From Aliiroseovarius salicola (lineage in GTDB: Bacteria; Pseudomonadota; Alphaproteobacteria; Rhodobacterales; Rhodobacteraceae), in contig NZ_JAQIIO010000002.1 of the NCBI RefSeq assembly GCF_027891095.1, positions 434,001 to 498,000 on the forward strand: a stretch of DNA of 64,000 nucleotides, given 5' to 3'. The position numbers were made by a program, and so were the translations under genes. This document shows, in pieces, positions 42,745-45,615 of this stretch (its first letter is position 1; each line of letters opens with the position of its first letter). The notes below the pieces were generated by a model. That model had not been told where the DNA came from, did not search any database, and was given only the letters and a program-made list of their open reading frames with translations.

Positions 42745-42775
42745 AAAAAGGCCGGAGAAACACTCCGGCCTTTTG
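42745..42775. terminator. bidirectional terminator between DUF1150 and the sulfate-activation gene
   Basis: GGCCGGAG (42750-42757) pairs with CTCCGGCC (42763-42770). Runs of A (42745-42749) and T (42771-42774) flank the stem, so it can end both the rightward DUF1150 transcript and the leftward sat-cysC transcript. Confidence 0.85.
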
Positions 42776-42799: not shown

Positions 42800-44872
42800 T
42801 TACCCTTTGATCAATCCCATGCTTTCAAGCGTGAGCAGGACCTGGTGGGCGCAGTTGTCCACTTCCACATTCTCGGTCTCAACACTCAGTTCCGGGTTGG
42901 TCGGAACGTCATAGGGATCGGAGATCCCGGTAAATTCCTTGATCTTGCCTTCGCGGGCCAGTTTGTAGAGACCTTTGCGGTCACGGCGTTCGCATTCTTC
43001 GATCGTGGTGGCCACATGAACTTCGATAAAGGCGCCAAACTGCTCAACATCCTCACGCACGGCGCGGCGGGTGGTGGCATATGGCGCAATCGGTGCGCAG
43101 ATTGCGATGCCACCATTTTTGGTGATTTCAGAGGCCACGTAGCCGATGCGACGAATGTTCAGGTCGCGGTGCTCTTTCGAGAAACCCAGCTCGGAGCTGA
43201 GGTTCTTGCGCACAATGTCACCATCCAGGAGCGTGACCGGGCGGCCACCCATTTCCATCAGCTTGGTCAGTAGCGCGTTGGCGATGGTGGATTTACCCGA
43301 CCCCGAGAAGCCGGTGAAGAACACGGTGAAACCCTGTTGCGAACGTGGCGGATAGCGGTGACGCAGTTCCGTAACCACTTCTGGGAACGAGAACCATTCC
43401 GGGATTTCCAGACCTTCCCGCAGGCGGCGGCGCAGTTCGGTGCCCGAGATGTTCAGGATGGTTACGTCATCCTTGTCTTCGATCTCGTCAGCAGGCTCGT
43501 ACTGGGCGCGTTCCTGAACATAGACCATGTGTTTGAAATCGACCATTTCGATGCCGATTTCTTCCTGATGCGCGCGGAACAGGTCCTGTGCGTCATAAGG
43601 ACCGTAGAAATCTTCACCGGCCGAGTTCTTGCCGGGGCCAGCGTGGTCGCGGCCAACGATCATGTGGGTGCAGCCGTGGTTGCGACGGATGATCCCGTGC
43701 CAGACAGCTTCACGCGGGCCAGCCATACGCATTGCCAGGTTCAGAAGCGACATCGAGGTGGTGGCTGCCGGGTATTTGTCCAGCACGGCCTCATAGCAAC
43801 GTACGCGGGTGAAGTGGTCCACGTCACCCGGTTTGGTCATGCCGACAACCGGGTGGATCAGCAGGTTGGCCTGTACTTCGCGTGCGGCGCGGAAGGTCAG
43901 TTCCTGGTGGGCGCGGTGCAGCGGGTTGCGGGTCTGGAACGCAACGATCTTGCGCCAGCCCAGCTTGCGGAAATAGGCGCGCAGCTCGTTCGGCGTGTCG
44001 CGACGGGCGCGGAAATCATAATGAACCGGCTGCTGGATGCCCACGACGGGACCGCCGAGATAGATCTTGCCAGCTTCGTTGTGCAGGTAGTTGACGGCAG
44101 GGTGGGCGTCGTCATCAGCACCAAAAACCTTCTCGGCCTCGCGCGATTTGTTCGGCTCATATTTGTCGGTCACAGTCATCGTGGCAAGGATCACGCCTTC
44201 CTGATCGCGCAGCGCAATGTCCTGACCCAGTGTGACGGTTTCAGCGAAATCTTCCGACACATCGAGGGTGATCGGCATTGGCCACAGTGAGCCGTCGGCC
44301 AGACGCATGTTTTCAACGACGCCATTGTAATCTTCTTCGCCGAGGAACCCCTTGAGCGGGTTGAAGCCACCATTCATCAGCAACTCCAGATCGCAGATCT
44401 GGCGCGGGCTTAGGTCGTGGCTGGTCAGGTCAGCGGCTTCAACTTTCAGTTTCTGCGCACTGTCGTAGGAAACGAAAAGCTCCGGGATCGGGGCGAGATG
44501 GGTGTCCATGGGAATAGTCCTGTGTTTGAGCGGTGAAAAACCGCTGGTGGTTCCGGTAAGCTCCGCATGCAAGGCGTTGTATTCCGCCAGTTTGCGGGCA
44601 AGAAATTTATCTGTGAGCCGATGTTTCTCAGCGCCCCCGCGTGGGGTCAGCGCATAGGCAAAGCGTTGCCGCTTGTCCGGGCCATCGCGCTCGCTGATCT
44701 TGATGAGGCCGCGTTCAACCGCCATGCGCATCAGCGCATTCAGCCGCCCAAGCGAAATACCGATGGCCGCTGCGGTTTCCCGCTGTGACGCTTCGGCTGC
44801 GGCATCAAGCTGACGCAGCAGGCGGAAGAGCTGGTCTTCCTCATCCGAATTTGGCTTTGTTTCCGACGACAT
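42800..44872 (-). CDS. sat-cysC: MarR/EPS-type winged helix fused to sulfate adenylyltransferase and adenylylsulfate kinase
   Basis: The 690-residue frame has three parts. Residues 1-121 match MarR-like EPS-associated regulators: AAAIGISLGRLNALMRMAVERGLI is the helix-turn-helix, FAYALTPRGGAEKHRLTDKFL the wing and following helix. Residues 122-505 are ATP sulfurylase, starting MDTHLAPIPELF, with FQTRNPLHRAHQEL and GRDHAGPGKNS. The rest is APS kinase, with Walker A GFSGSGKST. The enzyme makes APS and then PAPS. No stop separates the parts, but ATG 44509, with AGGAC upstream, could start a separate enzyme. A 14-bp palindrome at 44892-44905 lies just before the gene. Confidence 0.9.
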   Translation of the reverse strand: MSSETKPNSDEEDQLFRLLRQLDAAAEASQRETAAAIGISLGRLNALMRMAVERGLIKISERDGPDKRQRFAYALTPRGGAEKHRLTDKFLARKLAEYNALHAELTGTTSGFSPLKHRTIPMDTHLAPIPELFVSYDSAQKLKVEAADLTSHDLSPRQICDLELLMNGGFNPLKGFLGEEDYNGVVENMRLADGSLWPMPITLDVSEDFAETVTLGQDIALRDQEGVILATMTVTDKYEPNKSREAEKVFGADDDAHPAVNYLHNEAGKIYLGGPVVGIQQPVHYDFRARRDTPNELRAYFRKLGWRKIVAFQTRNPLHRAHQELTFRAAREVQANLLIHPVVGMTKPGDVDHFTRVRCYEAVLDKYPAATTSMSLLNLAMRMAGPREAVWHGIIRRNHGCTHMIVGRDHAGPGKNSAGEDFYGPYDAQDLFRAHQEEIGIEMVDFKHMVYVQERAQYEPADEIEDKDDVTILNISGTELRRRLREGLEIPEWFSFPEVVTELRHRYPPRSQQGFTVFFTGFSGSGKSTIANALLTKLMEMGGRPVTLLDGDIVRKNLSSELGFSKEHRDLNIRRIGYVASEITKNGGIAICAPIAPYATTRRAVREDVEQFGAFIEVHVATTIEECERRDRKGLYKLAREGKIKEFTGISDPYDVPTNPELSVETENVEVDNCAHQVLLTLESMGLIKG

Positions 44873-44891
44873 TTCATGCGACTCAAAGTAT

Positions 44892-44905
44892 GTTCACGCG
44901 TGAAC
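44892..44905. promoter_or_regulatory. perfect palindrome upstream of the regulator-sat-cysC gene
   Basis: GTTCACGCGTGAAC is a perfect 14-bp palindrome 20 bp before the start codon of the fusion gene. Its place and symmetry suit a dimeric winged-helix repressor, possibly the N-terminal domain of the same gene's product. This is inference from position. Confidence 0.55.
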
Positions 44906-45114
44906 GCATCGCATAAATCTGGCGTTTGGCAAAGAAATTATTCAGCTATATTTCCAAACACGGCGAATATGGCGGGGATTGTGGGGAATGGGGAACACCA
45001 TTCCATATTTCCTGTTGATTGAGGAACGTGAAGTGATCCTACGCCGGTGAATGCCACCGAAATCGGAACAATTGGATTGGCTCGATCCAGTGCAGAGAAA
45101 GGTGTCTCGCGGGT

Positions 45115-45615
45115 TCAGAAGGTTTGTGGTGAACCTCCACGGGCAACACGCGGTTCGGACACTCCATTCCAACGAAAGAGGGTCAGATGGGTTAAGTCTG
45201 GACGTGAGCGAGACGGGGTAAGCACCCCATCTGCTCCTTCGTCACGCAACGCGTCGCTGATCCTCCACGTAGAGGGGTGGATCCCCTCAGAGTGAAGCGT
45301 TGCCCAAAAGACGTGCAGATCATCCAGAGAGATCCCGAGGGCATTGCGTATTTCCGGAAGGCGCAGATCAACGATCCGATCAGCCTCAACGTCAATTGGG
45401 AAGATCCCGCGCGGCGGATCTTCAGACCGCTGATAGGCTTTTACGGCGACACGGCACCCTTCAGGCGACCCGGAAAGATAAAGAGCCTTTTGTCCGCCAT
45501 AGTGCCAGCGTCCGTGCGGGGCTTTTGCCGGGGCAAGAAGGTTCTCTTCCTGCCCCAGAAATATTGAGCGCCAGAAACGCCCCTGTAGGCTTTTGATATG
45601 CCTCTGAAAGGTCAC
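45115..45615 (-). CDS. RES-domain family protein coupled to trxB
   Basis: The 166-residue protein has the RES-domain core [22 protein letters not shown] toxins degrade NAD+ with Arg, Tyr and Glu residues; here Arg36 and Tyr46 are in place, but the position 11 residues after the Tyr, normally Glu, is Ala57. [21 protein letters not shown] near residues 118-138 is the second conserved block. The gene overlaps trxB by 4 bp (ATGA). No antitoxin gene (Xre/DUF2384) lies on either side, so a conventional toxin role is doubtful. Confidence 0.75.

Follow-up and report, generated by a model that had tools for sequence, protein, structure and literature searches.

Why should an enzyme of sulfate activation carry a DNA-binding domain? 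The question is raised by a gene of Aliiroseovarius salicola, found on contig NZ_JAQIIO010000002.1 within a stretch of 64,000 nucleotides that is referred to here as the window. On the minus strand, a single frame of 690 codons runs free of stops from the ATG at 44872 to the stop codon at 42800, and its product joins a MarR_EPS winged-helix domain to ATP sulfurylase and adenosine 5′-phosphosulfate (APS) kinase. A first-pass annotation, made from the letters alone, had read the uninterrupted frame in the same way and had left a choice: either a regulator is built into the enzyme, or two products are made from one frame. The evidence favours both together, in that the operator tracks the domain and an internal ribosome site tracks the fusion. 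We propose, with a probability of roughly 0.8, that the gene encodes an autogenously regulated 3′-phosphoadenosine 5′-phosphosulfate (PAPS) synthetase with two forms, a long one that joins regulator and enzyme and a short one that is enzyme only. The coding features are as follows.

42800..44872, minus strand: the long product, 690 amino acids, a fusion of a MarR_EPS winged helix-turn-helix, ATP sulfurylase and APS kinase (open reading frame, profile matches)
44555..44842, minus strand: MarR_EPS winged-helix domain, with residues 77-106 as its long C-terminal helix (profile, structure model, Foldseek)
44510..44554, minus strand: linker, residues 107-121, with a predicted local distance difference test (pLDDT) value below 50 from residue 112 (structure model)
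44033..44497, minus strand: PUA-like domain of ATP sulfurylase (profile match)
43358..44002, minus strand: ATP sulfurylase catalytic domain, with QTRNPLHRAHQEL and GRDHAGPG present (profile match, sequence)
42881..43336, minus strand: APS kinase domain, with the P-loop GFSGSGKST intact (profile match, sequence)

The profile searches bear out the three-part reading. The MarR_EPS family TIGR04176 matches residues 11-106, PUA_2 residues 126-280, ATP-sulfurylase residues 291-505 and APS_kinase residues 513-664, and residues 120-689 match NF004040, the bifunctional sulfate adenylyltransferase/adenylylsulfate kinase, with 1040 bits against a cut-off of 669. HRAH, GRDHAGPG and the P-loop, which we take to be catalytic motifs, are all found in the enzyme sequence; by score and motifs the enzyme part is a member of NF004040, with predicted catalytic activity. 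Membership of the N-terminal part in TIGR04176 is borderline: residues 1-121 alone score 91.5 bits, above the curated cut-off of 88, and the whole fusion scores 86.9 bits, slightly below it, as does a second fused protein (genome G120; 83.7 bits). In a host assembly of 3.58 Mb, 99.98% complete, the fusion is the sole match to its own protein at E values up to 1.

Modelled alone, the N-terminal domain (pLDDT 85.5) consists of three helices, a beta wing and a 30-residue C-terminal helix. A Foldseek search with this domain ranked MarR repressors first (E 3e-5; template modelling (TM) scores of 0.46-0.58 by query length), and the best TM-scores in the list, 0.74-0.76 by target length, belong to the winged-helix protein Sso10a-2, whose long helix presumably forms a coiled coil with a partner. 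The full-length model gives residues 112-135 pLDDT values under 50, a sign that they may be a flexible tether. The closest solved enzymes by sequence are 1i2d and 1m8p, which we take to be Penicillium chrysogenum ATP sulfurylase, followed by 2gks, presumably the Aquifex bifunctional enzyme. From profiles, model and Foldseek together, enzyme and DNA-binding domain stand in one chain, which is the structural mark of a trigger enzyme, that is, an enzyme doubling as a transcription factor.

Is the fusion real? The first-pass annotation had named a sequencing error, or the lack of any fusion in close relatives, as grounds for dismissing it, and had called for a search of relatives for the three-domain architecture. 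The fusion recurs, and both objections fall with that: the same frame in many independent genomes rules out a sequencing or assembly artefact. Fused matches occur in 20 of 100 genomes of the family (its own genome counted; that in G032 is interrupted by a contig end), in 18 of 21 genomes of the genus, where two are unfused and one is split across contig ends, and in 47 of 121 genomes of an order-level draw, all 47 coded as the same family. These samples overlap partly and hold 79 distinct fused genomes, of which three from the order-level draw (G138, G187, G223) lie outside the fetched locus set. A search with the N-terminal domain through a collection of 84,980 species gave 317 stretches, and the best 80 were taken as named loci; 79 of these are full-length fusions and the 80th ends at a contig end. 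They include Roseovarius, Leisingera, Shimia, Pelagimonas, Octadecabacter, Tropicimonas and Phaeobacter italicus. Among 240 genomes of the class, three of them from the Rhodobacteraceae family, only G000 and G120, two of these three, showed a long frame around a TIGR04176 match. Five more TIGR04176 matches above the cut-off are stand-alone, in frames of 117-173 amino acids, and the remaining ones (47-72 bits, frames of 80-343 amino acids) were assigned to other families by score alone.

It is unlikely that the N-terminal part is left untranslated, given a ratio of non-synonymous to synonymous substitution (dN/dS) of about 0.10 and invariant residues across the helix-turn-helix. Within the genus, the domain has a dN/dS of 0.10 (141 of 153 pairs used), the linker one of 0.11 (124 of 153) and the enzyme one of 0.05 (all 153). 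Since dN/dS is low upstream of the internal start, that upstream part is coding, and by this comparison the N-terminal domain is shown to be under coding selection.

What, then, would the domain bind? The palindrome that had been noted ahead of the start is present and is conserved in related genomes, and it stands among elements that look like those of a promoter. The count of 132 distinct fused loci used here and below comprises fused loci distinct by DNA, with a match reaching at least residue 240 (L045 is left out).

44892..44905, minus strand: operator GTTCACGCGTGAAC, with 19 bp between it and the ATG of the long start, overlapping or adjoining the predicted -10/transcription-start region (sequence, conservation)
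44908..44915, minus strand: TATGCGAT, the likely -10 region adjoining the operator (column conservation in the 132 loci)
44929..44934, minus strand: CTTTGC, the likely -35, 29 bp upstream of the operator, with CTTT conserved at 79-96% and GC at 52-64% in the 132 loci

Every fused locus has GTTC-N6-GAAC within 900 bp of the enzyme start, both in the set from the whole-genome searches (76 of 76) and among the fused named loci (80 of 80), as against five of 84 unfused loci. The strict form, GTTCA-N4-TGAAC, is found in 74 of the 76, in 78 of the 80 and in one of the 84, and in that sole unfused locus (L170) it precedes a separate MarR_EPS gene. Half of the first set (38 of 76) was fetched after the pattern had first been noticed, and 57 of the 80 named loci carry proteins new to the comparison by their last 400 residues; L044, the remaining half of a fused gene that contig ends have cut in two, is not counted among the unfused. 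Within the operator, the inner four bases vary, the outer GTTC and GAAC follow from the pattern searched for, and the base that comes next is A in 129 of the 132 loci; this column conservation skipped loci without a palindrome in a narrower window, and the 900-bp counts are the full ones. Since CTTT(GC) is conserved 29 bp upstream, the palindrome probably lies at the -10/transcription-start region, the usual position for a repressor. A second palindrome occurs further upstream in 24 of the 132 loci, by 32 or 49 bp in 16 of them (L012, L013, L143, L150, L159 and L162 are among these 24), and suggests cooperative binding.

The association holds on a tree of the enzyme (FastTree; 154 of 161 rows, L044, L045, L099 and L100 being left out together with L053, L086 and L173, where the match is extended upstream). 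Here either GTTCA-N4-TGAAC or GTTC-N5-TGAAC counted as an operator if it lay between 150 bp upstream and 45 bp downstream of the first start; an operator so defined is present near the start in 74 of 74 fused rows and absent from 80 of 80 unfused rows. The state of the domain changes at least 29 times over the 154 rows, a rough count because many branches are weak (55 of 151 inner branches have support below 80). When only supported branches are used, 11 independent pairs are available, and in all 11 the operator changes with the domain (p=0.001). A telling case is that of L042 and L043, of the same genus, nested among fused sequences and lying behind trxB as many fused relatives do, which have neither domain nor operator. 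No remnants of the domain were found before unfused enzyme genes, except at L170, where the matches are the separate MarR_EPS gene. Comparison thus shows that the operator tracks the fused domain, a footprint that is very strong for the operator of a trigger enzyme, and the fused domain very likely binds its own promoter.

The second part of the proposal concerns the junction, where the internal ATG and its upstream AGGAC had likewise been pointed out; both are in place and conserved across fused loci.

44517..44521, minus strand: internal Shine-Dalgarno sequence AGGAC, in which Arg codon 118 is AGG without exception (132 of 132 distinct fused loci)
44507..44509, minus strand: predicted internal start, codon 122, of a short enzyme-only product of 569 amino acids (ATG in 121, GTG in 10 and ATA in 1 of the 132)

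Arg codon 118 lies 9 nt before codon 122, and its constant use of AGG contrasts with the other Arg codons of the fused genes, of which 39 of 6,755 (0.6%) are AGG. The count sought an Arg three residues before Met, Val, Leu or Ile; no locus lacked this pattern, and L004, L019 and L100 are included. At codon 122, ten of the 11 departures from ATG are GTG, which is also a start codon. Constraint on the protein explains neither the choice of AGG nor GTG as the near-sole alternative, but a ribosome site followed by a start codon accounts for the two, and comparison shows the internal start to be under selection. We consider it quite likely that two products, long and short, are made from the one gene. 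A hairpin at the junction, to which the same annotation had drawn attention, exists in the window but is not general: a perfect stem of at least 4 is missing in 88 of the 132 loci. A stem of 5 or 6 occurs in 28 of the 132, versus about six by shuffling, an enrichment confined to a minority, and a functional hairpin was rejected for want of conservation across fused loci.

We propose that these elements form a circuit of the following kind. The N-terminal winged helices would pair through their long C-terminal helices, and the paired MarR_EPS domain would bind GTTCA-N4-TGAAC at its own promoter, where the bound long protein, from the position of the site, most likely represses its own gene. The same mRNA would also be initiated internally, at AGGAC...ATG, giving the enzyme-only short form; long and short forms probably enter mixed oligomers, and their ratio would tune the feedback. 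The catalytic part may report its occupancy by APS or PAPS to the DNA-binding domain, in trigger-enzyme fashion. By analogy, such gating of DNA binding by APS or PAPS is conceivable, though we would put it somewhat below even odds; a need for it would be a natural reason for keeping the parts fused, with APS and PAPS as the natural signals. In its fullest form, then, the enzyme that activates sulfate would itself be a transcription factor responding to APS or PAPS. Its long form would be both sensor and repressor, its short form would dilute the long one within mixed oligomers, and the long-to-short ratio, set by two ribosome sites in one frame, would fix the feedback gain; after one fusion, domain and operator would have been lost together repeatedly, while the enzyme kept its own start. 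We advance this whole scheme only tentatively.

Several observations weigh against the proposal. The operator is missing in its strict form from four fused loci (L004, L152, L274, L282), and L274, from an Octadecabacter metagenome bin, is the only locus with ATA at the internal start, although its AGG is kept. Twelve of 22 stand-alone MarR_EPS genes have no strict site. A scan for sigma-70 consensus promoters does not list the fusion promoter. Anti-Shine-Dalgarno energy does not single out the internal site, as 19 of 75 internal starts reach -5 versus 14.8% of 1,108 other in-frame ATGs (medians: -4.0 for the internal start, -2.2 for the long start and -2.2 for the other in-frame ATGs). The domain evolves faster than the enzyme, and the dN/dS values are rough, with dS near saturation (median 1.34). 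The full-length model is poor (pLDDT 55, shallow alignment) and no signal-carrying contact is visible in it; its enzyme part was not used. Finally, strict palindromes exceed a reversed-pattern control in most of 20 genomes, unfused ones included (7 versus 2 in the window's genome, 10 versus 0 in the unfused G114 and 4 versus 1 in the unfused G112). Since the excess is seen in unfused genomes, some such palindromes have another source. In G114, G112, G105 and others, part of the excess is one copy in each tuf gene.

How do other explanations fare against these data? Repression might simply follow the protein level, with the state of the enzyme irrelevant and the fusion serving only to equalise the amounts of sensor and enzyme. 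Such a ligand-independent homeostat is possible rather than probable; it agrees with a linker of low confidence and no set contact between domains, although the model is too weak to settle the matter, and with the one non-coding exact site in the window's genome, at the gene itself. A separate regulator would serve a homeostat equally well, however, and the keeping of the fusion in 132 distinct loci suggests that coupling matters. Alternatively, the long protein might be the only product and AGG-N9-ATG a relic of a formerly separate enzyme gene. An enzyme that once had its own start would be expected to bring a ribosome site to the junction when fused, the pairing energy of the site is unremarkable, and only 26 of 77 unfused enzyme genes have AGG in the -15 to -5 stretch, so the exact site is no general need of the enzyme. 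Yet an unused site would have decayed, whereas AGG is invariant here while other Arg codons vary, and the departures from ATG are nearly all GTG; we consider a relic unlikely.

The remaining explanations concern what the palindrome and the fusion are for. That stand-alone MarR_EPS genes share the site (10 of 22), that site and domain are gained or lost together and that, among the 79 fused genomes, only G109 has a further MarR_EPS match (E up to 0.001) all speak against another regulator reading the palindrome while the fused domain has some other role. In its favour, the palindromes exceed the control in unfused genomes too; even so, we consider this idea very improbable. The first-pass annotation had suggested control of polysaccharide sulfation, and the fusion might serve this through an exopolysaccharide regulon. 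In its favour are the name of the MarR_EPS family, the separate MarR_EPS gene upstream of a second sulfurylase-kinase copy at L170, and one Sulfotransfer_3 gene in the genome (the only sulfotransferase family searched). For the fusion gene itself the link is unsupported and quite improbable: it is the sole enzyme match in its genome, no second non-coding exact site is present there, the neighbours looked at are not exopolysaccharide genes and the trxB neighbourhood is common to many unfused orthologues.

If the fused domain is an autogenous regulator, does it have other targets? The window's genome holds seven exact GTTCA-N4-TGAAC sites, one at the fusion promoter and six inside coding frames (two tuf copies, an infC-like frame, a nuoF-like frame and two others, named by sequence reading). 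A wider regulon is unlikely, as the exact sites examined elsewhere, all six others in the window's genome and four out of a further six in G104, all lie in reading frames; no second non-coding site was found in the window's genome with the exact pattern, degenerate sites not having been searched. G025 and G035 have exactly one strict site each. A single target, the gene itself, is likely. Since a further MarR_EPS match was seen only in G109, the fused domain is the sole such protein seen in nearly all fused genomes. The ten stand-alone MarR_EPS genes with a strict site within 350 bp upstream were among 22 examined, of 26 such matches seen in the family, genus and order-level samples, and the equal-base expectation is 0.0004 per gene; GTTCA-N4-TGAAC is a candidate operator motif for the MarR_EPS family. 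In these ten (L170, L193, L199, L201, L202, L203, L205, L207, L210 and L211) the site stands 59-325 bp before the matched part.

It is instructive to compare the fusion with known systems. NadR has a DNA-binding domain, then an HxGH nucleotidylyltransferase, then a P-loop kinase, and the sulfate fusion has the same order of functions. It belongs to the sulfate and not the NAD pathway, however, and the likeness is one of function order, not of sequence comparison. We know of no internal start of this sort in NadR. BirA differs from the fusion in fold and in pathway. As a group II biotin protein ligase it has a DNA-binding domain, which group I enzymes do not, according to the part of PMC4016012 that deals with them. 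Like BirA, the fusion has an N-terminal DNA-binding domain on an adenylate-forming enzyme with domain-free relatives (group I there, the unfused enzymes here); unlike BirA, its apparent target is its own gene, and the conserved internal start should give a domain-free form from that same gene. NadR is named as a trigger enzyme in PMC8249747, where the passage concerned names five trigger enzymes of E. coli, none of them sulfate-activating. With PutA and the other single-target trigger enzymes described there, the fusion shares the doubling of an enzyme as a transcription factor with very few targets; both the enzyme and the DNA-binding domain are different.

In fungal ATP sulfurylase, PAPS exerts allosteric control through a kinase-like domain, as stated in the relevant part of PMC4220642. 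The fungal enzymes 1i2d and 1m8p resemble the fusion in having a C-terminal APS-kinase-like domain on the sulfurylase, through which PAPS acts on the latter; they differ in lacking a DNA-binding domain and in that their kinase-like domain is regulatory, whereas the P-loop of the fusion is intact. With the stand-alone MarR_EPS proteins the fusion shares the domain family and, in the ten cases given, the upstream palindrome; it differs in being fused, and the fused domains form a separate group in the tree. Four things set the fusion apart from these systems: the pathway in which it works, the use of a MarR_EPS domain, a single target that is apparently its own gene, and a second start that is conserved. 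We found no description of the fusion or its operator in the open-licence PubMed Central literature, which does not prove its absence. The passages seen in PMC10599003 and PMC8007912 go no further than naming a MarR EPS-associated regulator. A 64.4 kDa protein of Roseobacter litoralis, annotated as sulfate adenylyltransferase subunit 1/adenylylsulfate kinase (passage in PMC4103551), may or may not be of this family and is not used here. In Ruegeria pomeroyi, a transposon in SPO0900, a sulfate adenylyltransferase that may be of the fused or the unfused kind, lowers growth rate, as a passage in PMC7426152 reports.

Sulfate activation is the entry to sulfate assimilation and to sulfation, and no account of its control in these marine bacteria was found in the literature searched. 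Many marine bacteria of the Rhodobacteraceae family join the sulfate-activating enzyme to a DNA-binding switch, and the locus is a candidate one-gene feedback circuit in which operator, DNA-binding part and domain-free form are mapped to the base. Because domain and operator are naturally present or absent at one locus, even within a genus, the function of the fusion is directly testable.

What is the metabolic setting of the enzyme? PF01507, which we take to cover CysD as well, found one protein only in the window's genome, a CysH; thus, a CysND-type sulfurylase is apparently absent, and the fused enzyme appears to be the only visible route of sulfate activation. This CysH scores higher with TIGR02055 (APS reductase; 179.8) than with TIGR02057 (PAPS reductase; 158.4), below both cut-offs, and passes those of NF002537 and TIGR00434, both named phosphoadenylyl-sulfate reductase. 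It carries a CC pair and a CxxC, presumably marks of APS reductases. If it reduces APS, the routes to cysteine and to PAPS would part at APS.

The neighbours of the fusion are trxB, a RES-domain gene, DUF1150, Hsp20 and purE/purK-like frames (the pur names by sequence reading), and no exopolysaccharide genes were seen among the neighbours looked at. The name of the MarR_EPS family presumably reflects where its stand-alone relatives lie, and the fusion shares their domain but not that setting. Among fused loci, a trxB gene on the same strand precedes the enzyme in at least 54 of the 76 from the whole-genome searches and in 77 of the 80 named ones; among unfused loci it does so in at least 54 of 85 (L044, cut by a contig end, included), the counts for the 76 and 85 being lower bounds since only about 1-2 kb upstream was covered. 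Fused and unfused enzymes, sharing trxB upstream, are thus mostly at the same locus, and movement of the gene as a cassette is unlikely in most cases.

As to origin, 28 fused domains drawn from the 76 cluster together and separately from the 22 stand-alone ones (support 100/100), and all 132 distinct loci have the junction in common, AGG-N9-start included. A single fusion that was later lost many times, with possible exchange between lineages, fits better than many fusions. At L170 (genome G147), a second, unfused sulfurylase-kinase copy is preceded, at a distance of about 250 bp, by a separate MarR_EPS gene with its palindrome, next to a frame that by sequence reading is NusG-like. This is a candidate polysaccharide-sulfation locus, and the pair could show a possible ancestral arrangement; on that example, a link to polysaccharides may be ancestral.

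Some minor features complete the picture. The RES-domain gene (PF08808) lies at 45115-45615 on the minus strand, between trxB and the fusion, and a similar frame precedes the fusion in six of the 80 named loci; no antitoxin partner was apparent in adjacent frames, where no family search was made. The record of L265 is labelled Nocardioides marinus, a label that is probably wrong, the locus being one of the Roseobacter group. Downstream of the gene stands one further element.

42746..42774, strand not assigned: terminator-like hairpin of 12 pairs, directly 3′ of the stop (hairpin scan)

The scan lists this hairpin on the plus strand, and its stem is nearly symmetric, with a T-run on the minus strand too; as a single site it is weak evidence, three terminator-like sites being found in the 64-kb stretch versus 2.5 expected. 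From its position right behind the stop, the fusion gene may be monocistronic.

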